From: Lawsonibacter asaccharolyticus
GTDB taxonomy: Bacteria > Bacillota > Clostridia > Oscillospirales > Oscillospiraceae
DNA: 64,000 nucleotides
Assembly (NCBI GenBank): GCA_003112755.1
Contig: BFBT01000002.1
Coordinates: forward strand, 124,001-188,000
Direction of reading: 5' to 3'
Under the pieces are notes generated by a model. The model was not told where the DNA came from. It saw only the letters and a program-made list of their open reading frames with translations, and did no database searches. How positions within the stretch are numbered: the first letter of the stretch is position 1; each line of letters opens with the position of its first letter. Shown here piece by piece: positions 2,406 to 59,531 of the stretch. Both the position numbers and the translations under genes were made by a program.

Positions 2406-2433
2406 ATACTATGCACGCATCGCAGACCCTATT
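2406..2433 (-). promoter_or_regulatory. AAT/GCATA promoter for tnpB
   Basis: On the minus strand AAT (2433-2431) is followed after 16 nt by GCATAGTAT, about 35 nt upstream of the tnpB start. Its presence in an IS unit is notable. Confidence 0.6.
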
Positions 2434-2478
2434 GGCGAAAATACCATCCCCGATTCCTCGGAGGAGGTGATGTTAAAC

Positions 2479-2494
2479 CGCCCCTAAAGGGGCG
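2479..2494. repeat. IS left-end hairpin
   Basis: Perfect inverted repeat CGCCCC-TAAA-GGGGCG located 105 bases upstream of the tnpB start, in the position expected for a subterminal left-end hairpin. Confidence 0.55.
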
Positions 2495-2623
2495 TCGTTT
2501 CAGACCGAATTGTACCTTATGAAGTGCCGGCGCGTGAGGATGGGAGCTGGTACACCGGGTTGGCGGGTCTCGCTGTTTTGTACAACCGGGAAATATCCTG
2601 GCTGTTGTTGCAAACAGGCAGTT

Positions 2624-2658
2624 CTCACGGATCCTGCGTAGGCTCCGAAGGAGCCCGA
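2624..2658 (+). repeat. Intergenic repeat, truncated R arm
   Basis: CTCACGGATCCTGCGTAGG then GCTCCGAAGGAGC is the first third of an R arm. The TTTCTTCGTTAAAAAAGAC end is absent; the next recognisable feature is the terminator of the 2742-3446 gene. Confidence 0.6.
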
Positions 2659-2685
2659 CCTGGGGGAACTAGCCTGGGATGTAGG

Positions 2686-2732
2686 CAAAAAAAAGGAGCG
2701 GGACCGGGAGATATCCTCCTGGGCCCGCTTTT
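2686..2732 (-). terminator. Terminator of the 2742-3446 gene
   Basis: Read on the minus strand, GCGGGCCCAGGAGG pairs with CTCCCGGTCCCGC and runs into eight T residues. Confidence 0.8.
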
Positions 2733-2741
2733 GGCGCGGTA

Positions 2742-3446
2742 TTAGATTCTCTGTGCTCCTGCGATGGCGCCCTGATCAATGACGATGCGTCCATCGCTGA
2801 TACGGCTGCCGAAGTCACCGAACAATGTGCCGTCCCAGTCTGAGAGAACCATCTCATAGTCGCTGATTTCCTCCAGCCGGCCGGATACGATGCTCTGGCC
2901 ACCCCAGAGCCTCAGTTGCTCACCAATACGGATCTCGTCCTGATGCTTGGTGTTCAGGGGGACTAGGGCGGGGCGGAACCCGAGGCTCGCGTTTCGATAG
3001 CCGGACGAGCGGCTGCCCCAGTAGCGGGCCGAATTGTAGCCACGATACGCACGGTATGACCCTATTTTCCCTGGTTCTTGTACCCAAAAATAGGCGTCTT
3101 TCCAATGCCAGATGGAGTCATCCTCTCCGACGGCATCAAGAGCCGCATCCCACTCGTTAGGCTCGTCTTTTTCTGCTCCAACCTGAAGCAATCTCACTGT
3201 GAAGCGGAAGCCGCCGATGGATACTTCCTTGCCGAACACTAAGTCGTTGGCCTTCAGGTTGTCCCAGCTAATCTTGGTTAGGATACAGCGGTCGGCGATG
3301 AGCATGTTGTTCACCACCACCCAGCTGATCTCTTTGCCAGGAACAGCTTCGCCGATCCTGATGGCTTGGCCGGAGTTGTACACTATTTCTGTGTCTGCCG
3401 GGCAGTCGTCCAGATAGAGGCTGCCTAACTTAATGATATTTGCCAT
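2742..3446 (-). CDS. Lectin-fold-like family protein, isolated paralogue
   Basis: A 234-residue protein of no family I can name with certainty. It is clearly paralogous to the five genes at 42.5-46.7 kb: an N-terminal KLGSLYLDD start, PGKEISWVVVNNMLIADR near residue 40, ISWDNL and GKEVSIGGFRFTVRLL near 60-85, WHWKDAYFWVQEP near 115, an RGYNSARYWGSRSSG then SLGFRPALVPL block near 135-165, and a C-terminal ISDYEMVLS...DGRIVIDQ. The aromatic/Arg/Gly-rich segment ending in GFRPALxP resembles the C-type-lectin core of formylglycine-generating-enzyme-like and retroelement-diversified phage proteins; this is inference from pattern. It has its own promoter and terminator, so it is monocistronic, 39 kb from its relatives. 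Confidence 0.75.
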   Translation of the reverse strand: MANIIKLGSLYLDDCPADTEIVYNSGQAIRIGEAVPGKEISWVVVNNMLIADRCILTKISWDNLKANDLVFGKEVSIGGFRFTVRLLQVGAEKDEPNEWDAALDAVGEDDSIWHWKDAYFWVQEPGKIGSYRAYRGYNSARYWGSRSSGYRNASLGFRPALVPLNTKHQDEIRIGEQLRLWGGQSIVSGRLEEISDYEMVLSDWDGTLFGDFGSRISDGRIVIDQGAIAGAQRI

Positions 3447-3495
3447 ATATGTATTATCCCCTTCCTATGCTTGCTCCTAAATTGTTCCGTAATAC

Positions 3496-3524
3496 AGTTG
3501 TATGCAAAACTGCCGGAGTTCATT
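3496..3524 (-). promoter_or_regulatory. AAT/GCATA promoter of the 2742-3446 gene
   Basis: Minus-strand AATGAACTCC...GCATACAAC with the standard 16-nt gap; ACAATTTAGG follows 18 nt after the CATA, matching the CCAATTT-type element. Confidence 0.65.
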
Positions 3525-3634
3525 TGAAAGCTGAAATGAAAGGAGAAGTGCCCATTAGGAACATACTGCAGCCGCCTTCAGACTGGTAGGGGAGAGGGGT
3601 GTGCGAATCATTGGCACAGACTAGAAAGAGCAGT

Positions 3635-3731
3635 CCCACGGACCCAACATAAGGCTCCGAAACGGAGCCTGCCCGTGCCACAGCTCCTGGCAGAGGCAAT
3701 CTTCCTGCCGCATTTCTTTGTTAAAAAAGAC
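3635..3731 (+). repeat. Intergenic repeat, R arm
   Basis: CCACGGACCCAACATAAGG, hairpin GGCTCCGAAACGGAGCC, then CATTTCTTTGTTAAAAAAGAC at the right end. It lies upstream of the minus-strand promoter at 3.5 kb and left of a terminator-like hairpin. Confidence 0.75.
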
Positions 3732-3773
3732 TCTAACAACAACCCTCTTCCTAAACAACAAAGCGACGCTTCT

Positions 3774-3806: not shown

Positions 3807-3822
3807 GCTTTTGAGGGAGGTG

Positions 3823-5655: not shown

Positions 5656-5685
5656 AATATTATTTTGGGAAAGTGCATATAATAT
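5656..5685 (+). promoter_or_regulatory. AAT/GCATA promoter of the SLH/CAP gene
   Basis: AAT at 5656, GCATATAAT at 5675-5683; about 75 nt leader to the start at 5760 with AAGGAGG at about 5743. The -10 here also contains a perfect TATAAT. Confidence 0.7.
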
Positions 5686-5759: not shown

Positions 5760-7016
5760 ATGAAAGCAACGAACAACAAAAAGCGCATTTCCCTGTTGCT
5801 GGCAGCGGCCATGCTGATCAGCATCTTCGCTGGCATCTTCGCCACGACCAGCAAACCCACCTTTCCCGATGTCCCCACCTCCCACTGGGCCTACGCATCT
5901 GTAAATCGGGCCTCGGAAAATGGCTGGATCGCAGGCTACAGCAACGGGAAATTTGGTCCGGCGGACAATGTGACTTATGGTCAATTCGCTCTTATGCTGG
6001 GCCGGTCTGTTGACCCCTACCTGATCTCTGCGTACGGAGGGGATCCATCGATGGTTGAATGGTATGTACCCTGCATGGCGGTGATGAGGGGCGACAGTAG
6101 TTATTGCGTAGGAACCCCCATCATTGATTCCGATATCCATGAGATCGCCAATGAGCCGGTCAACCGGTATAATATGGCGCAGATCCTCTTCAATATCATG
6201 ACCATATATGATAAGGTCCCCAGCTATGATGCCGCCGCGGTACAGGCCGGCATTGCCGACTGGAAGAGCATCCCCGACAACTATAAGGATGCTCTGATGG
6301 CCGTGGTAAGTGCTGGCATCATCAGCGGTGTGGACGACAAGGGTACTTTCAATGGCAGCGCCCTGATGAACCGTGGTCAGGCTGCTGCGGTACTGTGCCG
6401 GATGTATGATGTATTTTCTGGAACAGGAACAACCACCCCTGCGACTCCTGATGAATCTGATACTCCCACCAGCACCGAGCTGGGACAGAAGCTGTCCAGT
6501 GGAGCCACTGCGGCGGCGGGGGTAGCTTCCGGTATTGGTAAAAAGGATGATTATCCCACTTATGGAAACTCTGATATTGTATCCAACAATGGGTATTACA
6601 CCGGAGCTACCAATGTGGATGTTGGAACGGCCCGATTGCAGTATAGCGCACTGGAGTATGTGAATGAGGCGAGGGTGGATGAGGGTCATGCGCCTCTGAG
6701 CTGGGTTCCCAGCGATGCAGCCGAGGAGCATACGCTTCAGCGGTGCTATGAGCTGGTGAGTGACTTTTCGCATGAGCGACAGAAAGGAAAATTTGCCGGA
6801 GAAGTAATCGCAAAGGGGCAAATTTCAATTTACAGTGCGGTGGAAGACTGGATGAATTCTTCCGGGCACAAGCAAACACTGATGGCGGATGATTACAAGT
6901 ATTTGTCTGCTGCAAAAGCGGGTAATTGTTGGATTATTTGTTTGTGGAGTGGTGATTTTGAATTGGTCGAACGGTGGTCTTCTAACAACTACGATTATTC
7001 GGCCTATAACAATTGA
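5760..7016 (+). CDS. Secreted SLH-CAP domain surface protein
   Basis: 418 residues. A basic N-terminus and hydrophobic stretch (about 8-28) form a signal peptide. An S-layer homology motif follows (FPDVPTSHWAYASVNRA, NGWIAGYSNGKFGP, YGQFALMLGRS; about 34-82); a second degenerate SLH unit lies near 170-215 (NYKDALMAVVSAGIISG, NRGQAAAVLCRMY). After a Thr/Pro linker a CAP/SCP-like domain occupies about 290-405 (ALEYVNEARVDEGHAPLSW, FSHERQ, GE, SSGHKQTLM, CWIICLWSGDFE). SLH repeats bind secondary cell-wall polymer, so the CAP domain is displayed on the cell surface. The canonical CAP active-site histidines are only partly recognisable. The 3' end is followed by a duplicated fragment of its own tail. 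Confidence 0.88.
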   Translation: MKATNNKKRISLLLAAAMLISIFAGIFATTSKPTFPDVPTSHWAYASVNRASENGWIAGYSNGKFGPADNVTYGQFALMLGRSVDPYLISAYGGDPSMVEWYVPCMAVMRGDSSYCVGTPIIDSDIHEIANEPVNRYNMAQILFNIMTIYDKVPSYDAAAVQAGIADWKSIPDNYKDALMAVVSAGIISGVDDKGTFNGSALMNRGQAAAVLCRMYDVFSGTGTTTPATPDESDTPTSTELGQKLSSGATAAAGVASGIGKKDDYPTYGNSDIVSNNGYYTGATNVDVGTARLQYSALEYVNEARVDEGHAPLSWVPSDAAEEHTLQRCYELVSDFSHERQKGKFAGEVIAKGQISIYSAVEDWMNSSGHKQTLMADDYKYLSAAKAGNCWIICLWSGDFELVERWSSNNYDYSAYNN

Positions 7017-7638: not shown

Positions 7639-7666
7639 ATAGTATGCAAATGGGACAGAAATTATT
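7639..7666 (-). promoter_or_regulatory. Antisense AAT/GCATA promoter (7.2 kb gene)
   Basis: Minus-strand AAT (7666-7664) with GCATACTAT after 16 nt, firing back into the 3' end of 7240-7602. It lies in the palindrome TTTGCATAGTATGCAAA; only the minus direction carries the AAT box. Confidence 0.6.
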
Positions 7667-9268: not shown

Positions 9269-9298
9269 AATGGAATAGCGGCAATTTGCATACGATGA
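9269..9298 (+). promoter_or_regulatory. AAT/GCATA promoter of the 9.4 kb small protein
   Basis: AATGGAATAGCGG...GCATACGAT; a CCCCAATTTTGG element starts 18 nt after the CATA. Nearly identical to the promoter of its paralogue at 20055-20082. Confidence 0.75.
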
Positions 9299-9828: not shown

Positions 9829-9856
9829 ATAGTATGCAAATAGGGCAAAAACTATT
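9829..9856 (-). promoter_or_regulatory. Antisense AAT/GCATA promoter (9.4 kb gene)
   Basis: Minus-strand AATAGTTTTTGCCC...GCATACTAT with exact spacing, 38 bases beyond the stop of 9445-9795 and pointing into it. Confidence 0.65.
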
Positions 9857-10330: not shown

Positions 10331-10360
10331 AATGAACCAAATCCACCTTGCATACAATAT
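10331..10360 (+). promoter_or_regulatory. AAT/GCATA promoter, distal, of adhesin 1
   Basis: AATGAACCAA...GCATACAAT, 98 nt upstream of a second copy; the adhesin therefore has tandem promoters. Confidence 0.6.
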
Positions 10361-10428: not shown

Positions 10429-10458
10429 AATGAGTTTCAGAGTAACTGCATATAATAG
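10429..10458 (+). promoter_or_regulatory. AAT/GCATA promoter, proximal, of adhesin 1
   Basis: AATGAGTTTCAGAG...GCATATAAT. The AATGAGTTTCAGA block is shared with the promoter at 36803, so more than the two boxes is conserved. Confidence 0.7.
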
Positions 10459-19311: not shown

Positions 19312-19340
19312 AATAGAAATTCTCCAATTTGCATACTATG
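19312..19340 (+). promoter_or_regulatory. Antisense AAT/GCATA promoter (19.4 kb gene)
   Basis: AATAGAAATTCTCC...GCATACTAT on the plus strand, facing the 3' end of the minus-strand gene at 19403-19843; third member of the antisense set. Confidence 0.65.
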
Positions 19341-19402: not shown

Positions 19403-19843
19403 TTAGAAGAGCTTTTCGAGCAGCGCCTTAGAGGCGATGTTCAGCAGTGCCCTCAACAGCGCGGCAAGCGCCATCTTGAGCAGTGCAAGGAGCATCTTCT
19501 TAATGGAATGCGACAGTTCTTTCCTCTGGTTGGATTGGGACTCCGTTGCAGAGCGAAAGAGAGCTGCCACATCAAGGTTGATGGAAACGCCGTTCTTGGC
19601 CATCTCGCAAATGGCTGGGGACAGCGTTTCTATCATATTTGCCATCATCTGGCAGGTGTTCAAAAACTCCTTCTTCCGGCACTCAGTCCTCCAACGCTTA
19701 ACAGCGTGCAGAAAACCAAGAATCATCCGGCCGATGGCCACAAACACCTGAGAGAAGATCAGCAATGCCTTCGCGGCAAACGCCAGCATGATAACCAGCG
19801 CAAGAATATTGGTTATAACTGCCACAATATTGTTGTCCAACAT
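19403..19843 (-). CDS. Small membrane protein of antisense-regulated family
   Basis: 146 residues; GAAGGAGG precedes the start. An N-terminal hydrophobic stretch of about 45 residues (ITNILALVIMLAFAAKALLI and on) gives one or two membrane helices, then a basic KRWRTECRKKEF segment, a middle ETLSPAICEMAKNGVSINL block and an amphipathic Leu/Ala-rich C-terminal helix (LLALLKMALAALLRALLNIA). Paralogue of 9445-9795 and 7240-7602. Promoter, leader block (CCCCTTTTGCAGAGCGAATGG-like), stem-loop and antisense promoter are all conserved with the 9.4 kb locus, so the whole locus, not just the protein, is the duplicated unit. Confidence 0.7.
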   Translation of the reverse strand: MLDNNIVAVITNILALVIMLAFAAKALLIFSQVFVAIGRMILGFLHAVKRWRTECRKKEFLNTCQMMANMIETLSPAICEMAKNGVSINLDVAALFRSATESQSNQRKELSHSIKKMLLALLKMALAALLRALLNIASKALLEKLF

Positions 19844-20054: not shown

Positions 20055-20082
20055 ATCGTATGCAAATTTCCGCCATTCCATT
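20055..20082 (-). promoter_or_regulatory. AAT/GCATA promoter of the 19.4 kb gene
   Basis: Minus-strand AATGGAATGGCGG...GCATACGAT with CTCCAATTTGGG 18 nt after the CATA. The leader to the start is about 210 nt. Confidence 0.75.
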
Positions 20083-20143: not shown

Positions 20144-20171
20144 ATAGCATGCCAATTTGCCGGACTTCATT
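20144..20171 (-). promoter_or_regulatory. Second, diverged AAT/GCATG promoter
   Basis: Minus-strand AATGAAGTCCGG...GCATGCTAT with exact spacing, 89 nt upstream of the previous one and next to the F arm at 20221. Confidence 0.4.
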
Positions 20172-22258: not shown

Positions 22259-22309
22259 ATAGTTTCCCCCTTTTGGTTCGTATTGCATCCAGATTGTGGT
22301 GCTGTCTGG

Positions 22310-22337
22310 ATAGTATGCGAACCTGGAGGAAATGATT
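22310..22337 (-). promoter_or_regulatory. AAT/GCATA promoter of the PARP gene
   Basis: Minus-strand AATCATTTCC...GCATACTAT; ACAATCTGG follows 20 nt after the CATA. Fixes the PARP start downstream at 22258. Confidence 0.7.
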
Positions 22338-22340
22338 TTG

Positions 22341-22380
22341 GGCAAAAGAAACAGCCGCCTCCTTGGTGGGGAAGCGGCTG
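22341..22380 (-). terminator. Terminator of the zeta-toxin operon
   Basis: Minus strand CAGCCGCTTCCCCACC pairs with GGAGGCGGCTG, then TTTCTTTTG. Confidence 0.8.
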
Positions 22381-23614: not shown

Positions 23615-23642
23615 GTTATATGCAGACTTGCTGGAGGCAATT
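23615..23642 (-). promoter_or_regulatory. AAT/GCATA promoter of the zeta operon
   Basis: Minus-strand AATTGCCTCC...GCATATAAC; CTCCAATTCAGG follows 18-19 nt after the CATA. Confidence 0.7.
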
Positions 23643-23686: not shown

Positions 23687-23785
23687 GTCTTTTCTAACGA
23701 AGAAATGTGGCGGAGGATTTTTTTCTCGCCATTGAGCCTTGCCACAGTCGGTCCCCTCGCGGGAACCTATGTCGAGTCCGTGAGG
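23687..23785 (+). repeat. Intergenic repeat, F arm
   Basis: GGTCTTTTCTAACGAAGAAA, hairpin GGTCCCCTCGCGGGAACC, then GAGTCCGTGAGG. Its left end faces the zeta promoter; the gap is shared with a divergent plus-strand promoter. Confidence 0.8.
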
Positions 23786-23854
23786 TTCCTTGTTGTGAAC
23801 AGCAGGGGAGATGGCCGCTATTTCTGGAAGCCGGTGCAAGAACTCCATTGCCAG

Positions 23855-23884
23855 AATTGTTTTTGCAAGTCTGGCATATCATCG
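23855..23884 (+). promoter_or_regulatory. AAT/GCATA promoter of 23936-24262
   Basis: AATTGTTTTTGC...GCATATCAT, 52 nt before the start; AAAAAGGAG is the ribosome site. Confidence 0.65.
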
Positions 23885-23935
23885 TACAGCTTCTCGCTAG
23901 AGGGGACTAAACAAAACAAAAAGGAGTTGCCAACT

Positions 23936-24309: not shown

Positions 24310-24340
24310 AATATAAATCATAGGAAGTGCATATAATATA
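24310..24340 (+). promoter_or_regulatory. AAT/GCATA promoter of the MqsA-like operon
   Basis: AATATAAATC...GCATATAATATA; the AGTGCATATAATAT core is the same as at 5673. Confidence 0.7.
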
Positions 24341-25745: not shown

Positions 25746-25775
25746 AATCATTTTCAAACATTGTGCATACTATTT
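25746..25775 (+). promoter_or_regulatory. AAT/GCATA promoter of the SLH repeat protein
   Basis: AATCATTTTC...GCATACTAT; about 85 nt leader; AAAAGGAGG at about 25849. Confidence 0.7.
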
Positions 25776-29727: not shown

Positions 29728-29757
29728 AATAGCTTTTGGAGAGCGTGCATACTATAC
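29728..29757 (+). promoter_or_regulatory. AAT/GCATA promoter of the adhesin 2 operon
   Basis: AATAGCTTTTGGAG...GCATACTAT; the AATAGCTTyyGG block is shared with the secretion-operon promoter at 47239. Confidence 0.7.
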
Positions 29758-35801: not shown

Positions 35802-35831
35802 AATAGAATTTGAGCGTTGTGCATACTATCA
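35802..35831 (+). promoter_or_regulatory. AAT/GCATA promoter of the pilin genes
   Basis: AATAGAATTTGAGC...GCATACTAT; AGAAAGGAG follows at about 35846. Confidence 0.7.
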
Positions 35832-36802: not shown

Positions 36803-36832
36803 AATGAGTTTCAGACAAATTGCATAAAATAG
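36803..36832 (+). promoter_or_regulatory. AAT/GCATA promoter of the Cys-rich operon
   Basis: AATGAGTTTCAGAC...GCATAAAAT with GCCAATTGGGG 20-21 nt after the CATA. Confidence 0.7.
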
Positions 36833-38168: not shown

Positions 38169-38198
38169 AATTGTCTGCGGCAAACCTGCATAAAACAA
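38169..38198 (+). promoter_or_regulatory. AAT/GCATA promoter of 38248 operon
   Basis: AATTGTCTGCGGC...GCATAAAAC; CCCAATGCTGG follows 17 nt after the CATA. Confidence 0.65.
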
Positions 38199-39394: not shown

Positions 39395-39424
39395 AATCAA
39401 TCACGGTCTATTTGCATACTATCA
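39395..39424 (+). promoter_or_regulatory. AAT/GCATA promoter of the 3D-protein operon
   Basis: AATCAATCACGG...GCATACTAT, 53 nt from the start; TTATCCACTTTAGG follows. Confidence 0.7.
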
Positions 39425-41318: not shown

Positions 41319-41362
41319 GCGCAAAGAAAGAGCCCCCCTCCGGGGCTCTTTCTTTGCGCTCA
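41317..41362. terminator. Long bidirectional terminator between convergent genes
   Basis: GAGCGCAAAGAAAGAGCCCC pairs perfectly with GGGGCTCTTTCTTTGCGCTC, a 20-bp stem; it includes the stop of the minus-strand gene. Confidence 0.9.
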
Positions 41363-41803
41363 GACTGTTTGGTTATAATTCAAAACAATGTAGCCCGCAT
41401 TATGCTCGCTTCGGGGAGAGATGTCAGCCACAGCGCTGATATGTCCCCAAGGGAAGATGTAGCGATTTTCGCCCTTCGGTTGTTCTGTCGGCCGGCCCAG
41501 TCGGACAAACAGCCAACGAGCACATACGACAAAGCGAAACTGTTGCCGCTCGCATTGATCCGCCATGGATGCAGGATATTCGATGCATGGCCGGAGGATG
41601 AGCCGCAGTAAATGGCCGGCAAGGAAACTGAATTCAGGGAGGAAATCGGTGCCATCCACAGAGACGGGACTGGTTGCACAAAAATAGTCGCAGGATGAGG
41701 CCCGCACCGGCAAACCGGAGGTGAGGAGTTCATCCATGGTCGTCTGCGGAGAAAACGGGAAATCGTCCAAGGAAAGAATGCCATGGGGAAGGTCTAATAC
41801 CAT
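41360..41803 (-). CDS. Hypothetical protein
   Basis: 147 residues from ATG 41803; the ATG at 41815 touches the AAAGGAG. It begins MVLDLPHGILSLDDFPFSPQ and has an aromatic C-terminal third. No family recognised; monocistronic with its own promoter, convergent with the 3D operon. Composition fits a soluble cytosolic protein. Confidence 0.6.
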   Translation of the reverse strand: MVLDLPHGILSLDDFPFSPQTTMDELLTSGLPVRASSCDYFCATSPVSVDGTDFLPEFSFLAGHLLRLILRPCIEYPASMADQCERQQFRFVVCARWLFVRLGRPTEQPKGENRYIFPWGHISAVADISPRSEHNAGYIVLNYNQTV

Positions 41804-41842: not shown

Positions 41843-41870
41843 ATCCTATGCACAGATGCTGGTTCCAATT
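41843..41870 (-). promoter_or_regulatory. AAT/GCATA promoter of 41360-41803
   Basis: Minus-strand AATTGGAACCAGC...GCATAGGAT, about 40 nt before the start. Confidence 0.65.
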
Positions 41871-42184: not shown

Positions 42185-42214
42185 AATAGCTTTAAGAATG
42201 CAAGCATATCATGA
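42185..42214 (+). promoter_or_regulatory. AAT/GCATA promoter of 42246-42437
   Basis: AATAGCTTTAAG...GCATATCAT, then AAAGGAGG at 42229. Confidence 0.6.
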
Positions 42215-42245: not shown

Positions 42246-42437
42246 ATGAGGAAGGTAGTGGATCTCTGCAAGCAATCCAAGAAGGCCCAGAAGGCCTTCT
42301 ACGCTGCACAACGAGGCAGCTGGAACGGGGTCAACCCTGTTTCCCGTGTTGTCCCAAACGGCAAGGCGTACTCCAGGGCAAAAGCAAAGGCCGATGCCCG
42401 GCGGGACGCCTGCCGTCCTTTTTTTTGCCCTAAATAG
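42246..42437 (+). CDS. Small basic protein
   Basis: 63 residues after AAAGGAGG. KKAQKAFYAAQRGSWNGVNP then VSRVVPNGKAYSRAKAKADA resembles short basic phage/plasmid proteins of unknown role. The last dozen codons overlap a hairpin plus eight T residues, so the transcript may terminate within the gene, or the true stop was lost. Confidence 0.5.
   Translation: MRKVVDLCKQSKKAQKAFYAAQRGSWNGVNPVSRVVPNGKAYSRAKAKADARRDACRPFFCPK
42403..42426 (+). terminator. Terminator overlapping a gene end
   Basis: GGACG-CCTGC-CGTCC then TTTTTTTT inside the last codons of 42246-42437. Confidence 0.65.
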
Positions 42438-42462
42438 CTCCTACTCTGCCTGCATAGGATAT
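42433..42462 (+). promoter_or_regulatory. AAT/GCATA promoter of the lectin-like array, first operon
   Basis: AATAGCTCCTACTC...GCATAGGAT; CACAATTTGGGG 18-20 nt after the CATA; AAAGGAGG at about 42493. Confidence 0.75.
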
Positions 42463-44773: not shown

Positions 44774-44803
44774 AATGGAGCTGGCTTAGCCTGCATATAA
44801 CAG
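44774..44803 (+). promoter_or_regulatory. AAT/GCATA promoter of the second array operon
   Basis: AATGGAGCTGGC...GCATATAAC; GCAATCTTGG 19-21 nt after the CATA. It starts 6 bases after the terminator T-run with no F/R arm between. Confidence 0.7.
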
Positions 44804-47238: not shown

Positions 47239-47268
47239 AATAGCTTCCGGTGCGTTTGCATAGTATTT
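47239..47268 (+). promoter_or_regulatory. AAT/GCATA promoter of the secretion operon
   Basis: AATAGCTTCCGGTG...GCATAGTAT; leader about 95 nt to AAGGAGG and the ATG at 47365. Confidence 0.7.
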
Positions 47269-47754: not shown

Positions 47755-48702
47755 ATGCCTGTACTGATCATTCTGATCATGCTGGTGATCGTCGGAGCCA
47801 TCGGAGCTGGCCTTTTCCTGATGGTCAAGAAATTGGATCCGATGCAGAAGGACAAATCCGAAAACAGCGACCTTGAGATTGCCCAGGATTTCCTGCCCTT
47901 TGACGACATCCGCAATAACATGATCGTAATGCCCAACCACAGCTACCGGGCCGTCATTGAGTGCTCGGCCCTGAACTATGACCTGAAGACGGAAGGCGAG
48001 CGCGATCAAATCGAGATGTCCTTCCAGCAATTCATCAACTCTTTGAGTTTCCCAATTTCGATTTTCCTGCAGACCAAGGAGATTGACAACACCCACCGGG
48101 TAGAGTCCTTGCGGACTGAGATCTCCAAGACACTGGTGGAGTTCCCGGGCATGAAGAATTACGCCGACCATTTTATGGCTGACATGGAAAACCTGAATGT
48201 CCGCATCGGCAACAACCAGCAGAAGAAGCGCTATATTGTTGTTCCCTACGACGACGCTATCGGCTTGGACGGCCTGACGGACGGCGAAAAAGCTGCCTAT
48301 GCCAACAAAGAGCTGCTGAACCGGTGCAATGCTGTCCGCAGCGGCCTGGACGCTGTAGGCATCATCACCCGCACCCTGAGCACTGCCGAGCTCATTGAGC
48401 TCGTGTACAGCTGCTATAACCGTGAAGGCTTCAGCTATGCTGAGGCTATTGCCAGCAACGATGCGTTTGCTCTGTTCGTGGATGGCGTTGAGGATAAGTT
48501 CCGCGACCTGCCTCGCGTTGGTATGCTGGACCTAATCCTAGGTGAAGCCATCAACAAGCTCCGCGCCGGCAATGTGGACAGCGAGAAGAATGGCCAGGGT
48601 GCCATGCAGGAGATGCTTCTCCTCCAGAAGGAAGCCCAGCGGCGCATGGAGCAGATCCGGATGAAATATGCCGGGTACTTTACTGATGGAGGTGACCTGT
48701 AA
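47755..48702 (+). CDS. VirB4 N-terminal-domain-like membrane-anchored subunit
   Basis: 315 residues. One N-terminal helix (LIILIMLVIVGAIGAGLFLM) then a soluble region like the N-terminal domain of VirB4/TraC proteins: DFLPFDDIRNNMIVMPNHSY near 42-61, a central FPISIFLQTKE strand, and an EGFSYAEAIASNDAFALFVD segment. It has no P-loop and lies directly upstream of the VirB4-like ATPase, overlapping it by a base, so the VirB4 function is probably split into two chains. Named by position and similarity, not by a certain family. Confidence 0.65.
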   Translation: MPVLIILIMLVIVGAIGAGLFLMVKKLDPMQKDKSENSDLEIAQDFLPFDDIRNNMIVMPNHSYRAVIECSALNYDLKTEGERDQIEMSFQQFINSLSFPISIFLQTKEIDNTHRVESLRTEISKTLVEFPGMKNYADHFMADMENLNVRIGNNQQKKRYIVVPYDDAIGLDGLTDGEKAAYANKELLNRCNAVRSGLDAVGIITRTLSTAELIELVYSCYNREGFSYAEAIASNDAFALFVDGVEDKFRDLPRVGMLDLILGEAINKLRAGNVDSEKNGQGAMQEMLLLQKEAQRRMEQIRMKYAGYFTDGGDL

Positions 48703-50678
48703 TGGCTTTTGGAAGGAACAAGAAAGAGAAAAAGTCCAAGAAGAAGGACAAGGCTGCTGGGGTTGCTCAGGAGCCTGAGCTGATCATCGGTGAGGTGCAG
48801 ACGCCTAAGACGGTCGGCGCTACTATGCTGGAGAAGGGCGTGCCGACCCTGAAAGATATGATGGCTCCACCCAGCTTTGATAGGACTGAGTTCGACCATC
48901 TGGGCATCGGCGACCGTGTCATGCGCAGCTTTCTGCTATCTGGTTTCCCTAAGCACATCATGGTTGGCTGGGCCGATAAGCTCTACAACTATGATGGTGA
49001 CCTGGATATGACCATCCACATCAACCCTATGGATGAGCGTGAGGCCATCGATGAGCTGACCGATAAGATCACGCAGTATGAGGCCCAGCTGGATGTGGAG
49101 TCTGAGAAAGGTCAAACCCGAAATATGACCCGTCTGGGCAACCAGATCACCGAGCTGGTCCGCGAGCGTGAGAAGATCGAGCAGAACTACATCTCCATGT
49201 TCCAGGTCCAGATGATCTGTAATCTGTATGGTAAAACGGTAGACCAGCTGGACAAGGAGACTCAGATGCTGGACAACACGCTGCGGGGCAAAAAGATCAA
49301 GCTGATGCCTCTGCACCTGCGACAGGACCAGGGCTACAAGTCTGGTATGCCGTTCGGCAAGACCTGGCTGCCCAAGAACTTCCGCAACTTCTCCTCTGAG
49401 GGTCTTACGGCCTGTTTCCCATTCTACAATGCTGAGATCTCTCATCCATCCGGCACTCTGCTTGGTGTCAATCTACAGACGCAGACGCCCATCTATGTGG
49501 ACTTCTTTGACCGGCGTATCCTGGAAAACGGCAATACCACTGTGCTGGGCCGGGCTGGTTCCGGTAAGACCTTCCTGGTGTCGCTGCTGACGATGCGCTC
49601 TGCCCTCCAGGGTGTACGGACAGTCATCATCGACCCTGAAGGCGAGTACAGCACTATCACGGAGGCCCTGGGTGGTAAGGTCATCAAGATCGCCCCTGGC
49701 TCTACCACCATCCCCAATCCATTCGATTTGGAGGATGAGGAAGTTCTGGATGAAGATGGGCAGGCCACCGGTCAGCGTATCGTCAATATCAAGGAAAAAG
49801 TGGCCGACCTGCTGAACCTAATCGGCGTGATGACCGGCGAGCTTACCCAGGAGCAGCGCTCCCTGGTCTCCTTTGCCTTGGCCAGCATCTATGAGGAGTT
49901 TGGCTTCACAGAGGATTATACCTCCTTGTATGACAATGATGTGGTAATGAATGATCGCGGCGAGTTTGTCCACCATGGCCATAAGCGGCCCATGCCTACC
50001 TTCTCTGACTTCCATCGGAAGCTGGAGGAGATTGCCCAGACGCCTGGCAATGAGACGCTTGTTTCAGTTGCAAATGCCCTGCGCATGTTCAAGCGGGACG
50101 GTGTGTACGGCCTGTTCGACCAGCCAACCTCTGAGGATATGACCAACTACACGGATGCTCCGGTCATCTGCTTTGATATCAAGCAGCTGGAGGAAAATGT
50201 ACTTCGGCCGATTGGCATGTACAATGCCTTGTCTTGGGCCTGGGAAAAATTCGCCAAAAAGAATCCTAAGCTCCGCAAGCGTATCGTCTGCGACGAGGCG
50301 TGGATGCTGACCAACCCCAATATGCCTGGTTTCCAGTTTACGGCACAATTCCTTGAGACCTGCTCCCGCCGGTCCCGTAAGCGGAACTGCTGCCTGCTGG
50401 TGGCTTCCCAGAACTTCAAGGAATTCGTGAGCTGTCCCCAGGGCGAGGCTGTTCTCTCCAACGCAGTGGTTAACATCTTCCTGAAGCAGAGCTCTACAGA
50501 CCTGGACGCTGTCCAGGAAAAGTTCAAGCTCTCTAACGGCGAGCGGGCCTACCTGACCTCGCCGGCCCGCGGCCATTTCCTGCTCAAGATGAACTCGGAG
50601 GCAACCATTGGGTACGCATTCCCCATGGACATCGAAAAGTACCTCATTGAAAAGCGGACGATTGCAGGACGCAAGTAA
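48702..50678 (+). CDS. virB4: VirB4/TraC-type secretion ATPase
   Basis: 658 residues. Walker A LGRAGSGKTFLV at about 283-294 and Walker B RIVCDEAWML at about 526-535, with the DPEGEY motif near 310 and the arginine-rich CSRRSRKRNC stretch near 560, all standard for VirB4. An N-terminal Lys-rich segment (KKEKKSKKKDKAAG) is unusual. It powers pilus biogenesis and substrate transfer at the inner face of the membrane. The start overlaps the previous stop (TAATG). Confidence 0.93.
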   Translation: MAFGRNKKEKKSKKKDKAAGVAQEPELIIGEVQTPKTVGATMLEKGVPTLKDMMAPPSFDRTEFDHLGIGDRVMRSFLLSGFPKHIMVGWADKLYNYDGDLDMTIHINPMDEREAIDELTDKITQYEAQLDVESEKGQTRNMTRLGNQITELVREREKIEQNYISMFQVQMICNLYGKTVDQLDKETQMLDNTLRGKKIKLMPLHLRQDQGYKSGMPFGKTWLPKNFRNFSSEGLTACFPFYNAEISHPSGTLLGVNLQTQTPIYVDFFDRRILENGNTTVLGRAGSGKTFLVSLLTMRSALQGVRTVIIDPEGEYSTITEALGGKVIKIAPGSTTIPNPFDLEDEEVLDEDGQATGQRIVNIKEKVADLLNLIGVMTGELTQEQRSLVSFALASIYEEFGFTEDYTSLYDNDVVMNDRGEFVHHGHKRPMPTFSDFHRKLEEIAQTPGNETLVSVANALRMFKRDGVYGLFDQPTSEDMTNYTDAPVICFDIKQLEENVLRPIGMYNALSWAWEKFAKKNPKLRKRIVCDEAWMLTNPNMPGFQFTAQFLETCSRRSRKRNCCLLVASQNFKEFVSCPQGEAVLSNAVVNIFLKQSSTDLDAVQEKFKLSNGERAYLTSPARGHFLLKMNSEATIGYAFPMDIEKYLIEKRTIAGRK

Positions 50679-54835: not shown

Positions 54836-57382
54836 TCAGGATACCAGGGCGACCAGTGTCTGCTGCTTCTTATTATAAGTAATCAACAGCTTCTCCTTTG
54901 CCCGGGTCACTGCCACATAGAGAAGTCGGTGCTCTTCCTCATTGGCAGGCTTGAACTTCTTGAGGGACAGGAGGACGACAGGCCACTCAAGACCCTTGGC
55001 GGAGTGGACAGTGATCAGATTGACGGCGTCTGCGTCCTCGTGGGCGGTAGATTTGGTCTCCTTGATCTTATACTCCTTGTACTTCACACAGTACCGGAAA
55101 ATTTCACCGGCCGTGTGGAAGCCCTTAGTCATGATATCCTCGGCGAATGCCTTGGCAATGTAATCCTCGCAGGCATCCTGGATCATCCCCGTAAACAGGG
55201 CAATCCGCTCTGCCTCGCTGCCAAGTTCATCATATTTCTTACCCAGCTCCTCAGCGTCCTTCTTCAGGGCGTCCGCATCGAATGGGTCGCCGCCCAAGCT
55301 CTTGCGGTACAAGGCTAGACTCAGCGTATCCTCGTGGTTGAGCAGGAAGGAAGCCAGCCCAATGATGGCCTTCACATATGGGGCGTCCCCGATGACCTCT
55401 GGAACCCGGAGAATGGTGGGAATACCGGCATCTTCCATTTCCTTCTGGACTGCGATCAGTTCAGACTTGGTACGGCAGAGAACTGCGATGTCACGCGGCT
55501 TTACGCCGTCCCGAAGCAGCTTTTTGGTCTGCTTCACATACAGCTCCCGCTCGGCATCCGCCTTCTCGATGTCCATGAGGACAGGGGCGATGCCCTCCTC
55601 CTTACGGTGGGCCTTGATGACCTTTGCGATCCGGGCCTCGCGGCTGAGGATGCGGTTGGCCATCTCGATGATGGGCGACTGACTGCGGAAGTTGTCCTCC
55701 AGCGGAATGTCTACCATGCCAGGGAAATAGTCGCTGAATTTGATCAGATTCTCAGGCGTGGCATCGCGGAAACCATAGATGGCCTGCAGCTCGTCACCGA
55801 CTACCACGATACTCTCCAGCTCCTTGGCGGCCTTGGCCATCTCCAGGATGAGGGAAATCTGGTTGCCGTTACTGTCTTGGAATTCGTCCACCACAATGTG
55901 GTGGTAGGGGAGGTCCTCGAACACGCCGAACGCCTTTAGCTTGAGGATGAGCCGCAGCTGATCCTCATAGTCAATCTTATTCAGCTCTACCAACTTGGCA
56001 TTATACGCTTCATAAATAGCCAGCAGTTCCTTGGCCCGCGGTTTCATGTCCATGGTCACCATCTTCTCCACCTGATCGACCGTTTCCACATGGTTGGCCT
56101 TCAGTGAATCGATGATGCGCCCAATCTGGACAACGGCGCCACAGGCGTTGGGCAGGTCCAGGAAGGGGTTGCGGTAGTCGATGGGCAGTGTGCGGTGGGA
56201 ATCCAGCAAATTCACAATGATATCCTTCTTCAGGATCTCATCCACCAGCTGCGGCGCCTCCGTGAACCCCAGCTTTGCATAGTGGGTATCCAGGAGCTCC
56301 TGCCCGAAGCTGTTGAAGGTCCGGACGACGATCTTATCGGTCTCAATGTTCAGGTCCTTCAGGGTGCTGCCGCATGCGTAGCGGTGCAGGCGGGACTTCA
56401 TCTCCCCACACGCCTTGTCGGTGAAGGTGATCATCAGGATCTGCTCGGGCTTGCACCCCTCCTCAATGAGGCGCAGGGTGCGCAGGGTGACGATGGTCGT
56501 CTTGCCGGAACCGGCAACCGCATTGACCCGGCATTCACCCGATTCAAACTCGACAAACCGGCGTTGGCTGGGCGTCATATGGATGCTGTCCAGCGGTTTT
56601 TCCTCCACGGTGGGCTTTTCCTCCAGGCTTCGCTTGACGAACTCCGTGTGGCAGAGGTCCTTATAGATGCAGTCATAGCACTCACGCTCATCGTCAGTGC
56701 AGAGGGCCACATCCGGCTTCTGACCGGACAGCTCCTTCGCTAACGCCGTCTCCTCACCAATGGTGAAGTGGTGGTTGATGATGTTGGAGCCCAGCCGGCT
56801 CTCGAAGGTCGACTCCAGGCTGCGGGAAGTGTCCAGGGACGACTTCAGGTAGTAGAAGCTGCCGAACACTGGCTTGCCGGTAATACCCAGCTTGGCCGCC
56901 TCAGCCTCGCCAGTCCGCTGCAGAGCCAGCAGATCAGGGTTCTTCTCCACCGGCGTCTTGCGGGAACGATAGCTCATCTCCGGCTGCTTATAGAGATACC
57001 GGATGCACTCCAGAGCTGTGCCGCGGTCAATGAGCCGATGGGCAGAAACACTGTGGTCGTCGCCCATGACCTTGACCTTGTTCACGAAGTTCTCGGCCAG
57101 GATCTTGTTCTTCTGCCGGCGCTCAAACTCCAGATATCTCCAGAGCAGGACCTCCATGCGCTCCCGCTCCGCCTCAGCCTCAAATGGCAGCAGACGGTCG
57201 GCCTTGGCGTCGAAGGCGTCACGAATACGCTTCCGGAGCGCTGCCTCTCCAGTGGAGAAAGGAGAGCTCAGAAGGACATCCTTTACAATACCGCGCAGAA
57301 TGCCGGCCTTGATGATACCAGAGTCGACGGCCGTACGCAAATAGGCCTTGCGAGGGCAGCTACGAATATCCGAGATAGACAT
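54836..57382 (-). CDS. UvrD/Rep-type helicase with Fe-S cluster N-terminal domain
   Basis: 848 residues from ATG 57382 after AGGAGG; the promoter at 57440-57467 lies inside the longer frame. Residues 1-245 carry C9 (in RSCPRKAYLR) and a CYDCIYKDLC trio near 233-242, the four-cysteine Fe-S arrangement of AddB/Cas4-type nucleases; the PD-(D/E)XK residues between are not clear to me, so activity is uncertain. Superfamily 1A helicase motifs follow: VAGSGKTT near 291 (I), VVDEFQDSN near 510 (II), GDELQAIYGFRDA (III), LEDNFRS (IV), TVHSAKGLEW (V), LLYVAVTRAKEKL (VI). Likely a DNA end-processing helicase or helicase-nuclease. Monocistronic. Confidence 0.88.
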   Translation of the reverse strand: MSISDIRSCPRKAYLRTAVDSGIIKAGILRGIVKDVLLSSPFSTGEAALRKRIRDAFDAKADRLLPFEAEAERERMEVLLWRYLEFERRQKNKILAENFVNKVKVMGDDHSVSAHRLIDRGTALECIRYLYKQPEMSYRSRKTPVEKNPDLLALQRTGEAEAAKLGITGKPVFGSFYYLKSSLDTSRSLESTFESRLGSNIINHHFTIGEETALAKELSGQKPDVALCTDDERECYDCIYKDLCHTEFVKRSLEEKPTVEEKPLDSIHMTPSQRRFVEFESGECRVNAVAGSGKTTIVTLRTLRLIEEGCKPEQILMITFTDKACGEMKSRLHRYACGSTLKDLNIETDKIVVRTFNSFGQELLDTHYAKLGFTEAPQLVDEILKKDIIVNLLDSHRTLPIDYRNPFLDLPNACGAVVQIGRIIDSLKANHVETVDQVEKMVTMDMKPRAKELLAIYEAYNAKLVELNKIDYEDQLRLILKLKAFGVFEDLPYHHIVVDEFQDSNGNQISLILEMAKAAKELESIVVVGDELQAIYGFRDATPENLIKFSDYFPGMVDIPLEDNFRSQSPIIEMANRILSREARIAKVIKAHRKEEGIAPVLMDIEKADAERELYVKQTKKLLRDGVKPRDIAVLCRTKSELIAVQKEMEDAGIPTILRVPEVIGDAPYVKAIIGLASFLLNHEDTLSLALYRKSLGGDPFDADALKKDAEELGKKYDELGSEAERIALFTGMIQDACEDYIAKAFAEDIMTKGFHTAGEIFRYCVKYKEYKIKETKSTAHEDADAVNLITVHSAKGLEWPVVLLSLKKFKPANEEEHRLLYVAVTRAKEKLLITYNKKQQTLVALVS

Positions 57383-57439
57383 AAGTTCATTTCCTCCTTT
57401 AGTCTTATATATGTCTCCATAAATTGGGGTGCTGATCAA

Positions 57440-57467
57440 ATAGTATGCCAAACGCATAAAAGTCATT
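57440..57467 (-). promoter_or_regulatory. AAT/GCATA promoter of the helicase gene
   Basis: Minus-strand AATGACTTTTATGC...GCATACTAT; ACCCCAATTT 18-20 nt after the CATA. Confidence 0.75.
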
Positions 57468-57820: not shown

Positions 57821-57850
57821 AATGAATCCTGTGCAGTCTGCATAATACAT
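57821..57850 (+). promoter_or_regulatory. AAT/GCATA promoter of 57886-58272
   Basis: AATGAATCCTGTGC...GCATAATAC; AAAGGAG at about 57874. Confidence 0.6.
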
Positions 57851-57885: not shown

Positions 57886-58272
57886 ATGATGGGCAAACAA
57901 TATGTAAACGAGCTAAACAAGGCTATCTACAACTCACCCGTCCTGGCCCGATCGGAGATTTTGTCATCTCGCAAGGAGACCCTGTTCGATACCATCGAGG
58001 GATGCTTCGTCCGGGCTGGATTGCTGGATACGCTGGCCCGGGAGATGGAACTGCAGATCCTCAAGGGCGACTTCTCCGCCATGCAGCTGCCGCCCTACCA
58101 GGAGCCGGCGCATCGCCCGCTGATGCCCGGAGCTCGGCGGAAGGAGGAAGAACGGCGTGCCCGCTACAAGTGGGCCCAGGATCGACTACTGGCTGCCCAG
58201 CAGATGTGCCAGCAGCGGTGGGAGGACGGCTGGTCCATGGCCGAGATCCTCATGATGGAACGGGCTATCTAA
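57886..58272 (+). CDS. Hypothetical protein, paralogue pair member 1
   Basis: 128 residues after AAAGGAG. Helical; shares with 58480-58863 the plan EIL/IKxxRxDTLxDxIE near 24-40, ILKGDFSAMQLPPY near 60-73, RARYKWAQDRLLAAQQMCQQ near 90-110 and RWEDGWSMAEILMM at the end. No known family. Two separate units, each with promoter and R arm, show the regulatory flank was duplicated too. Confidence 0.6.
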   Translation: MMGKQYVNELNKAIYNSPVLARSEILSSRKETLFDTIEGCFVRAGLLDTLAREMELQILKGDFSAMQLPPYQEPAHRPLMPGARRKEEERRARYKWAQDRLLAAQQMCQQRWEDGWSMAEILMMERAI

Positions 58273-58282
58273 GAGCGGCAGC

Positions 58283-58379
58283 CTCACGGACTATGCATAG
58301 GCTCCGAAAGGAGCCGGCTCCGACAAGTGCTCAAGGCAAAAAAAAAGACCCCCTGCCTGTTTTCTTCACTAGAAAAGAT
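58283..58379 (+). repeat. Intergenic repeat, R arm
   Basis: CTCACGGACTATGCATAGG, hairpin GGCTCCGAAAGGAGCC, TTTTCTTCACTAGAAAAGATC; the next promoter box starts 21 bases later. Confidence 0.85.
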
Positions 58380-58399
58380 CCGGCACCTTCAGTAGCAAA

Positions 58400-58429
58400 A
58401 ATGAGGGTCCTGAAATCTGCATAGGATAG
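58400..58429 (+). promoter_or_regulatory. AAT/GCATA promoter of the NUDIX operon
   Basis: AATGAGGGTCCTG...GCATAGGAT; TCCAATCC 18 nt after the CATA. Confidence 0.7.
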
Positions 58430-58479
58430 GGCAGGAATCCAATCCAAGGAGATTGCGCAATTAAAAGGAGGAGTTATTC

Positions 58480-58863
58480 ATGTGTAGGGAGTATATCGAA
58501 CAGCTCAACCACCTCATCAGCATTGCGCCTCATCTGGCATATGCGGAGATCAAAACCTGCAGGCGGGACACGCTCATTGATGAGATCGAAAGCTCCATCC
58601 GTCTGGCAGGGCTTCCGGACTACCGCGCTCGGGACATCGCCATCGGGGTCATCAAGGGCGACCTGATGGCATTACGGCTGCCGCCTTTTGTACCAAAGTC
58701 AAGGTTCCCGTTCACGCCGGCGGCCTTTCGGGCTGAGCACGACCGGCGTCTCCGGTATGACCGTGCCAGAAACCAGATGATGCGGACGCAGGACTGGTGT
58801 CAGCGCCGGTGGAACGAAGGGTGGTCGCTGGCCGAAATCATGATGCAGTCTAAGGCTATGTGA
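58480..58863 (+). CDS. Hypothetical protein, paralogue pair member 2
   Basis: 127 residues after AAAAGGAGG. Aligns end to end with 57886-58272 (EIKTCRRDTLIDEIESSIRL, VIKGDLMALRLPPF, RARNQMMRTQDWCQRRWNEG, WSLAEIMMQ). The conserved LPPF/Y and C-terminal WxxAEIMM are the best family markers. It is cotranscribed with the NUDIX gene 16 bases downstream. Function unknown. Confidence 0.6.
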   Translation: MCREYIEQLNHLISIAPHLAYAEIKTCRRDTLIDEIESSIRLAGLPDYRARDIAIGVIKGDLMALRLPPFVPKSRFPFTPAAFRAEHDRRLRYDRARNQMMRTQDWCQRRWNEGWSLAEIMMQSKAM

Positions 58864-58879
58864 TGGGAGGGAAGAACAA

Positions 58880-59449
58880 ATGGCAAAGCTCAAAAATATC
58901 AAGCTGGTCTCACTCGGGAAGTACCTCTCCAAGTACGAACTCTCCTATGAGACCAGGGACGGAGGAGAAAAACAATATGAAATGGTTAGCAACAACCGGG
59001 AGCTGACGGTCGGCGCCATCGGACAGGGCCAGACAGGCATTGTCCTGCTGGTCTTCGATGCGGCCCGCGAGCACATGCTCCTGGGTATCGAGTTCCGGAT
59101 GGGCGTAAACTGCCATGTGGTCAATAACATCTCCGGGTTCATCGATACTGGTGAGACTCCGGAGCAGGCAGCCGCCCGGGAGCTGAAGGAGGAAACGGGG
59201 CTGGAACTTACCAAGTTCATGGATGTCCTGCCCTTTGCCTTCAGTTGTGCCCCGGTAACCGATATGACCACGGCGCTCATCGTTTGCGAAGCTGCTGGGA
59301 CCATCGCTCCAAGCGACAATCCTAACGAGGAGATCAGCCCAGTCTGGTTCAGCAAAGAACAGCTGCGGGCGATGCTCAAGGACCCATGCGTCCGGTTTGC
59401 CGGCCGTACTCAGGCGCTCGCGTATATGTGGTGCTTCCAGAACAGCTAA
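58880..59449 (+). CDS. NUDIX hydrolase (ADP-ribose pyrophosphatase-like)
   Basis: 189 residues. A complete NUDIX box, GFIDTGETPEQAAARELKEE then TGL at about 97-119 (G-x5-E-x7-R-E-L-x-E-E-x-G-L), within the usual alpha/beta/alpha fold; GGAGGGA precedes the ATG. Length and N-terminal region (ETRDGGEKQYEMVSNNREL) resemble the ADP-ribose/nucleotide-sugar branch. If it hydrolyses ADP-ribose it could recycle products of the PARP encoded 36 kb away; that link is speculative. Confidence 0.88.
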   Translation: MAKLKNIKLVSLGKYLSKYELSYETRDGGEKQYEMVSNNRELTVGAIGQGQTGIVLLVFDAAREHMLLGIEFRMGVNCHVVNNISGFIDTGETPEQAAARELKEETGLELTKFMDVLPFAFSCAPVTDMTTALIVCEAAGTIAPSDNPNEEISPVWFSKEQLRAMLKDPCVRFAGRTQALAYMWCFQNS

Positions 59450-59460
59450 TGCTGTCAAAA

Positions 59461-59495
59461 GACAGGCCTGCCGCATGGCAGACCTGTCTTTCTTT
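59461..59495 (+). terminator. Terminator of the NUDIX operon
   Basis: GACAGGCCTGCC pairs with GGCAGACCTGTC, then TTTCTTT. Confidence 0.8.
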
Positions 59496-59501
59496 GCCCG
59501 A

Positions 59502-59531
59502 AATACGAACGAGGCCACTTGCATAGAATAG
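59502..59531 (+). promoter_or_regulatory. AAT/GCATA promoter of the Dam operon
   Basis: AATACGAACGAGG...GCATAGAAT with a perfect TCCAATTTGGGG 18-19 nt after the CATA; the clearest example of the two-part arrangement. Confidence 0.8.

Follow-up and report, generated by a model that had tools for sequence, protein, structure and literature searches.

Mobile elements can supply their own sigma factor together with a promoter class, and phage sigma factors such as SPO1 gp28 do so within a temporal programme. Here we consider a stretch of 64,000 nucleotides (nt) from Lawsonibacter asaccharolyticus (assembly GCA_003112755.1, contig BFBT01000002.1, positions 124,001 to 188,000; "the window" below) and the replicon it belongs to, C2, where a single promoter sequence, hardly used by the chromosome, seems to start the majority of genes and to give the replicon a switch largely of its own. 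Among known systems, SigN (ZpdN) of the Bacillus subtilis plasmid pBS32 comes nearest, though C2 differs in scale and in its coverage of backbone genes. In the SigN report, plasmid-encoded sigma factors are termed rare, and SigN is described as plasmid-encoded, with a sigma-A-transcribed gene and a limited, inducible regulon that appears predominantly plasmid-restricted (PMC6751061). The candidate counterpart on C2, the product of gene g201, is likewise plasmid-encoded and, judged by its upstream sequence, probably transcribed by sigma-A, and the C2 motif is likewise plasmid-restricted, as a motif only (159 of 162 strict matches). As points of difference, SigN is LexA-repressed, DNA-damage-induced and self-activating and leads to cell death (PMC6751061). 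On C2, a conjugative-type plasmid of 402 kb, the motif instead stands ahead of 64 of the 100 leading genes, transfer and DNA-maintenance genes included, and g201 has no motif within 700 nt upstream (best score -7.9) from which to activate its own promoter.

Sigma-E and sigma-K of sporulation provide a second point of comparison. According to PMC3789822, the two factors of C. difficile and B. subtilis have -10 boxes in common, among them CATATTAT and CATATAAT, with a -35 of ATA for sigma-E and AC for sigma-K; one sigma-E promoter is given as ATA-N16-CATATATA, and glutamine Q217 of sigma-E determines the ATA -35. The C2 system resembles these in its CATAnnAT -10, its ATA-N16-CATA spacing and regions 2.4 and 4.2 of g201. 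It is unlike them in the near-invariant G before CATA, in an AAT[A/G] -35, in a g201 protein far under the family cut-offs, and in having 180 sites on the plasmid and almost none on the chromosome. Among megaplasmids, pMP7017 of Bifidobacterium breve is also conjugative and also has a recurrent motif, of 34 bp, upstream of several plasmid genes; its promoters have been mapped and, unlike those of C2, the highly transcribed ones fit the host consensus TTGACA-N17-TATAAT (PMC10832533). Six Bacillales megaplasmids were also compared: pSC2 (Paenibacillus polymyxa), a 414-kb plasmid of Brevibacillus halotolerans, a 722-kb plasmid of Aneurinibacillus and three more. Their VirB4 proteins are 54-58% identical to that of C2 (window 48702-50678), and two of the six have gyrase or topoisomerase genes in the stretches examined, as C2 has at C2:320292-324530. 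Two megaplasmids of this VirB4-related group also carry gyrase and RuvC-type genes nearby, which points to a wider plasmid family. Unlike on C2, the pooled upstream regions of four of these megaplasmids show dyads of sigma-A type.

The replicon and its host

The window corresponds to C2:124001-188000, and C2 is a 431,489-bp contig of a 4.28-Mb, 7-contig genome. From position 402,311 the contig repeats its own beginning; about 29 kb are thus present twice, and C2 is therefore a circle of about 402,310 bp. It encodes a VirB4-like ATPase, a VirD4/TraG-like coupling protein, a gyrase A/B pair, a RecG-like helicase, two RecD2-like helicases, an NAD ligase, an FtsH-like protease and a flotillin, as well as 21 tRNA genes, 18 of them clustered at C2:88117-96406, beyond the window. 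No phage structural genes were noticed among 44 scanned C2 proteins of about 420 called, and gene content points to a conjugative-type megaplasmid. A megablast search of window positions 30000-54800 against plasmids gave zero matches, and a literature search found no published account of the motif or the plasmid. The host is of spore-forming ancestry, because its genome contains a SigK-like gene, a SigG gene and spoIVA. Matches to host spoIIID are split between C1:2135818-2135955 and 2149339-2149452, 13.4 kb apart and each under the family cut-off, and the host sigK reading frame stops early, past SRSYV; both look like genes split by intervening elements.

A probable promoter class nearly confined to one replicon

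A preliminary description of the window had listed thirty sites, on both strands, that share AAT, exactly 16 nt and GCATA. Of these positions, 29 fit AAT-N16-GCATA exactly, and the remaining one, 20171 on the minus strand, reads GCATG as had been said. Dinucleotide shuffles of the window give 1.60 +/- 1.26 matches, with a maximum of 5 in 100 shuffles, against 29 observed; the preliminary description had expected about two by chance. In the whole genome, the strict form AAT-N16-GCATAnnAT occurs 162 times, with 159 matches on C2, 3 on the 3.5-Mb chromosome and 0 on C3-C7. When the overlapping contig ends are counted once, C2 has 180 unique loose sites (AAT-N16-GCATA) and 147 strict ones. A search of upstream regions for dyads of any kind, as the preliminary description had proposed, ranks AAT-16-GCAT first: it is present in 126 of 298 C2 upstream regions against 6.3 expected. 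When those regions are read on the other strand the count falls to 23 of 298, and samples from the chromosome and from C3-C7 give 3 of 101 and 0 of 179 regions, respectively.

A matrix built from the C2 sites, and then used to compare C2 with the other contigs, finds 204 places above 12 bits on C2, a density of 253 per Mb-strand; the other sampled contigs, with 665,282 positions scored, have 5 such places, or 7.5 per Mb-strand. With gene positions taken from our own gene caller and this C2-trained matrix, a site lies within 350 nt of 64 of the 100 C2 genes that lead a directon, against 1 of 127 on other sampled contigs, and also of 100 of the 290 remaining C2 genes. By these counts, the earlier wording that the motif drives almost the whole element was somewhat strong. 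General use by host genes, which would have made the motif a host trait, is not what is seen, as the chromosome holds 3 of the 162 strict sites. Beyond the window, C2:282448-297321 is a 15-kb stretch without a matrix match above 12; it carries a RecG-like helicase, a DUF2325 protein and a transposase-type helix-turn-helix gene, and looks like acquired cargo.

The position of the sites is that expected of promoters. Intergenic DNA makes up 21% of C2 and holds 159 of the 180 sites, of which 146 face a gene on the same strand and 13 do not; in flipped orientation the number is 60 of 159. The remaining 21 sites lie in genes, and the motif is thus not as common inside genes as upstream of them; equal frequency in both places is what the preliminary description had named as refuting its claim. 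In a logo of the 180 sites, a purine occupies the seventh base past the AT that ends the -10 in 82% of cases, preceded by T or C in 66%. With this purine as +1, AAT lies at -34 to -32 and TGCATAnnAT at -16 to -7. Since CATA was fixed by the search, the -10 CATAnnAT is judged by its last two bases, with A at -8 in 93% and T at -7 in 85% of sites. In summary, the motif has a -35 of [AG][AG]AAT[AG] and a -10 of TGCATAnnAT. Among C2 upstream regions with the motif, none (0 of 130) has a sigma-A score of 10.5 or more, whereas 9 of 101 chromosomal regions, 10 of 179 from other contigs and 7 of 168 motif-free C2 regions reach it (shuffles, 1.3 of 298), in line with the earlier remark that TTGACA/TATAAT is mostly absent. 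It is almost certain from these patterns that the motif represents a real, nearly replicon-wide promoter class, and the proposal of an element-specific class with a dedicated sigma factor as its likely cause gains support.

Resemblance to sigma-E promoters

When the motif is read one base to the right, AATA-N15-GCATA becomes ATA-N16-CATA; written as (A)AT[A/G]-N16-CATAnnAT, the sites have the layout of sigma-E promoters. The preliminary description had compared the CATAnnAT -10 with sigma-E and sigma-K boxes, and the boxes given in PMC3789822 bear this out. It had also held that the AAT -35 does not match sigma-E, which is not supported: at half of the sites, those with A after AAT, the shifted motif is ATA-N16-CATA. 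Among the 147 strict sites, 75 read AATA, 44 AATG, 18 AATT and 10 AATC. The G before CATA is nearly invariant on C2 (147 of 149 AAT-N17-CATAnnAT sites) and is present in 83 of 83 C2 ATA-N16-CATAnnAT sites, against 5 of 17 on the chromosome by our count. For one host gene, spoIVA, we read upstream a promoter of classic sigma-E-like form, GTCATATT...CATACACT, in which CATA follows a C. Because of this difference at the base before CATA, the C2 motif, although sigma-E-like, seems unlike the sigma-E promoter of the host itself. Sigma-G, whose spacing is 17-18, was dropped as a model, as its -35 fits but its spacing differs, and sigma-54 and extracytoplasmic function (ECF) promoters were considered and dropped as well.

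Sigma factor genes on C2

The search for an element-encoded sigma factor, also suggested at the outset, yielded four sigma-70 genes on C2. They are g201 (249 amino acids, sigma-E/K-like), beyond the window at C2:214403-215152; g312 (392 amino acids, RpoD-like), also beyond it at C2:331405-332583; g238, which is 55% identical to a host ECF factor; and g329 (203 amino acids, C2:345076-345687), which is divergent like g201. The g312 protein is 38.5% identical to host RpoD over most of its length and alignable with it also across a region like 1.1, with changes around region 2.4-3.0. The g201 protein scores 71.4 bits against the sigma-70 superfamily (cut-off 42.9), and its best specific types are SigE at 64.8 and SigK at 64.0 bits. 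Its region 2.4, TYAFACGRNEVKMYLRK, aligns with TYASRCIENEILMYLRK of SigE. In region 4.2, SQSEVSK retains the Q of SigE SQSYIS, where host SigK has R; the glutamine of SQSE is invariant in 16 aligned family members, and we infer that it corresponds to sigma-E Q217. The g201 family is discrete, with 23 proteins. One member, P0018, and a VirB4 relative of 85% identity, P0038, come from the same source; for each the longest contig is given as 94,504 bases, so they are probably on one contig. Across 295 genomes of the order, no g201 relative among the matches listed exceeds 36% identity. One phage relative reaches 42% over a third of the length.

What sets g201 apart is its upstream region. Within 700 nt, the best matrix scores are 35.3 for g238, 22.6 for g329 and -7.9 for g201; g312 has a motif of 29.9 bits at -612, with a small called open reading frame (ORF) in between. 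As the sole C2 sigma gene without the motif, g201 has a host-type promoter, TAGACA-N18-TATAAT, at C2:214198-214227, which lies about 170 nt ahead of the start codon, past what we read as a terminator-like repeat. With a sigma-A score of 10.5, the g201 region ranks within the top 7 of the 298 from C2, whereas shuffles give 1.3 of 298. On the strength of the SigE-like regions 2.4 and 4.2, the family score and the sigma-A-type promoter without the motif, we judge on balance that the motif is most likely read by a plasmid-borne sigma-E/K-like factor, with g201 as the best candidate.

The motif is also less uniform than the preliminary description had supposed, with at least two subclasses. A -35 of AAATxT is coupled to a TATA-centred, TATAAT-type -10 at 34 of 35 sites, against 23 of 131 sites without that -35 (Fisher p 6e-19). 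In our reading, this kind stands ahead of the gyrase genes, both RecD2 genes, tRNA genes and the g238 sigma gene, whereas the type IV secretion system (T4SS) run in the window and g329 carry the other kind. The subclasses may reflect two sigmas.

A proposed order of expression and its alternatives

Since g201 alone has a host-type promoter and the other sigma genes have the motif, the simplest model would run from sigma-A to g201 to the plasmid, and it is this order that we infer. Host sigma-A would transcribe g201 from TAGACA-N18-TATAAT, and the g201 sigma would join host core RNA polymerase and read the motif promoters of C2. It would thereby activate most plasmid transcription units, including the T4SS, gyrase and the runs that contain the other three sigma genes. 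A wider and more tentative account, which we put somewhat below an even chance, is that a conjugative-type plasmid took a sigma of the sigma-E/K lineage from sporulation as its main replicon sigma and recoded most promoters to a private AAT[A/G]...TGCATAnnAT, leaving the sigma gene among the few with a host-readable promoter and the plasmid transcriptionally orthogonal. The plasmid would then be largely silent in a new host until the sigma is made, and a small sigma cascade may serve the two subclasses.

If this is true, a private and nearly replicon-wide promoter code would explain how expression of a 400-kb plasmid is kept separate from that of its host. Expression after conjugation would hinge on one gene, and the pair of sigma and promoter could serve as an orthogonal system for similar hosts. 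The motif is also a simple DNA signature with which to find related elements in metagenomes.

It is possible, though doubtful, that another C2 sigma reads the motif or that two share it, with g329 or the RpoD-like g312 taking part and one factor serving the AAATxT/TATAAT subclass and one the rest. The strong coupling of the two subclasses (34/35 vs 23/131) would suit such a division, all three other sigma genes have the motif upstream (at 612 nt for g312), and g329 is 25% identical to g201, retains SQ in the 4.2 helix and has its own family of 12 proteins. However, g312 retains the RQAIT and RERVRQIE stretches of host RpoD, residues that we take to predict TTGACA/TATAAT, the region 2.4 of g329 is by our reading less SigE/K-like, and g238 is 55% identical to the host ECF factor, ECF promoters being different in look from the motif. 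Moreover, g238, g312 and g329 themselves appear to depend on transcription from the motif, and another factor must therefore start the cascade. The host could also provide the reader in two ways. Sigma-A might recognise the TAnnAT of the -10 while an activator from the plasmid assists it at the -35, in the manner of phage sigma appropriation, which we regard as distinctly unlikely. T-12, A-11 and T-7, the bases that sigma-A most requires, are kept in most sites, and a TA centre makes TATAA[TC] of 57 of 166 GCATAnnA[TC] sites. The GCA at -15 to -13 is nevertheless not the extended box of sigma-A, which has TG at -15/-14; the -35 element of 3-6 bases is small for an activator site, the spacing is fixed, and the other sampled contigs have sigma-A-like promoters without the motif.

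Reading by host sigma-E (or sigma-K), which would confine plasmid expression mainly to the sporulating mother cell, is very unlikely. Spacing and -10 equal those of sigma-E (PMC3789822), and the host has the SigK-like and SigG genes and spoIVA, but the spoIVA promoter has C rather than G before CATA (one gene), the G is found at 5 of 17 chromosomal against 83 of 83 C2 ATA-N16-CATAnnAT places, and the strict motif is nearly absent from the chromosome. T4SS, gyrase and SLH genes would also be odd mother-cell genes. Least probable of all, with only a slight chance, is that the motif is a repeated binding site, such as an operator or a partition or packaging site, rather than a promoter. A highly repeated sequence almost wholly on one replicon would fit that idea, while the orientation towards genes, the start signature at +1, the usual distance to ribosome-binding sites and the shortage of good sigma-A promoters in motif-bearing regions all speak against it.

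Several observations weigh against g201 as reader of a private code. The protein is well under the specific cut-offs for SigE (64.8 and 64.1 against 339 and 348.6 bits) and SigK (64.0 and 55.2 against 252 and 298.65 bits). Six other C2 genes, one a DNA methylase and five without a Pfam match, have sigma-A-like promoters as good as that of g201, and the absence of the motif from g201 means that there is no positive feedback as in SigN. C2 carries three further sigma genes, and the g329 family, with 12 proteins, is similar in distribution. Sigmas resembling g201 (25-30% identity) are present in other plasmids (13 records) and in phages (24 records); in contrast to the phages, C2 is a plasmid with T4SS genes. 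The strict ATA, with A after AAT, is found at just 50% of sites, and G takes its place at 30%. Five of the six Bacillales megaplasmids have an annotated sigma-70 near their conjugation genes, yet the motif is not enriched in them (141 vs 123 reversed). To these may be added the surveys beyond this genome, in which three slightly different patterns were used for 60 relatives, 400 genomes of the family and 391 of the class: none is enriched like the Lawsonibacter genome itself (162, 132 and 65 matches, respectively), although many of those surveyed are drafts and may lack plasmids. A search for the g201 family in genome and viral contigs also found nothing, and thereby no second element with the motif.

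The highest count among the 60 relatives after L. asaccharolyticus belongs to genome G048, with 20 matches against 1 for the reversed pattern, scattered over many contigs, and 1 match with the stricter class-survey pattern. Next among the 400 family genomes are G337, G531 and G636 with 8, 6 and 8 matches. With a looser pattern, six such genomes are 1.5- to 6-fold above the reversed control, again scattered over many contigs where places are listed. We read this excess as a composition effect, since the reversed pattern contains a CpG; that also makes it a weak control, and dinucleotide shuffles are the better one. Patterns with 20 and 18 fixed bases were run against genome and viral contigs and matched once in each of 4 and 18 stretches, respectively, with only scattered weak matrix matches nearby, mostly in AT-rich DNA. 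The idea that the Bacillales relatives share the motif was dropped, as the six megaplasmid records hold 141 matches and the reversed pattern has 123.

Sites in the window

At 24 of the 30 window sites, a called start on the same strand lies 26-294 nt past the predicted start point. On the plus strand, the promoter at 5656..5683 (AAT..GCATATAAT, of AATAT/TATAAT type; predicted start 5690) precedes an SLH/CAP-domain gene at 5760-7016, and that at 9269..9296 (start 9303) a gene at 9448. Two promoters, at 10331..10358 (GTGCCAAT type, start 10365) and 10429..10456 (start 10463), stand ahead of an ORF of 2533 amino acids at 10594. These are followed by 24310..24337 (AAAATATAAA/TATAAT type, start 24344, gene at 24397), 25746..25773 (start 25780, SLH gene 25865-29365) and 29728..29755 (GCGCCAAT type, start 29762). 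The promoter at 35802..35829 (start 35836, gene at 35885) overlaps the end of a small called ORF. Further along are 36803..36830 (start 36837, gene at 36885), 38169..38196 (GCATAAAAC, start 38203, gene at 38248), 39395..39422 (start 39429, gene at 39477), 42185..42212 (start 42219, gene at 42246), 42433..42460 (start 42467, gene at 42511) and 44774..44801 (GCATATAAC, start 44808, gene at 44850). The gene run that includes the VirB4-like ATPase (48702-50678) has its promoter at 47239..47266 (start 47273). The last three on this strand are 57821..57848 (GCATAATAC, start 57855, gene at 57889), 58400..58427 (start 58434, gene at 58480) and 59502..59529 (start 59536), ahead of a D12-class adenine methylase gene at 59593-60591.

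On the minus strand, the site at 2406..2433 (start 2399) serves an OrfB/Cas12f-like (TnpB-type) gene at 1096-2373, and that at 3497..3524 (GCATACAAC, start 3490) a gene at 2742-3446. The site at 20055..20082 (start 20048) precedes a gene at 19403-19843, and the GCATG variant at 20144..20171 has a matrix score of 14.7. Others are 23615..23642 (GCATATAAC, start 23608, gene 23128-23559) and 41843..41870 (start 41836, gene 41360-41803). Three sites fall within the 5' ends of called genes: 22310..22337 on the minus strand (start 22303; gene 21068-22345, likelier start 22258), 57440..57467 on the minus strand (start 57433; UvrD-like helicase gene 54836-57466, likelier start 57382) and 23855..23882 on the plus strand (start 23889; gene 23732-24262, likelier ATG 23936). 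In all three, an in-frame ATG preceded by a ribosome-binding site is found at +46 to +52, and the called starts are therefore probably set too far upstream. The first of these genes, 21068-22345, encodes a plasmid protein with a poly(ADP-ribose) polymerase catalytic domain.

Leaders and structured RNAs

Past the start point, a leader of the form CCAA[TC]-N1-5-GG is present at 42 of 132 sites outside the AAATxT/TATAAT kind, against 1.3% of random C2 stretches, and a looser form at 59 sites. It typically reads CC(C)AAT, a gap of mostly 2-4 nt and GGAGA, at about +5 to +18, for example past 38203, 42467 and 59536. The variable gap suggests an RNA signal, perhaps a hairpin, although the leader may also be an operator. 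A third promoter group (GCGCCAAT) is often without an ORF close behind. Among the window sites, 7639..7666 (minus strand, RNA from 7632), 9829..9856 (minus strand, RNA from 9822) and 19312..19339 (plus strand, predicted start 19346) have no near ORF and are followed by structured RNAs. Five such RNAs at motif promoters are similar, the other two lying at C2:260132 and C2:10292, both on the minus strand; each has a hairpin AGCCUG..CAGGCU and then CCAUCC..GGAUGG, and an Rfam scan of the window gave no match. Four of the five promoters belong to the GCGCCAAT group. At four of the five, one with a mismatch, a 19-23-bp palindrome around ATTTGCATACTATGCAAAT covers the -10 (19 bp at 7639..7666 and 19312..19339, 23 bp at 9829..9856) and is operator-like in appearance.

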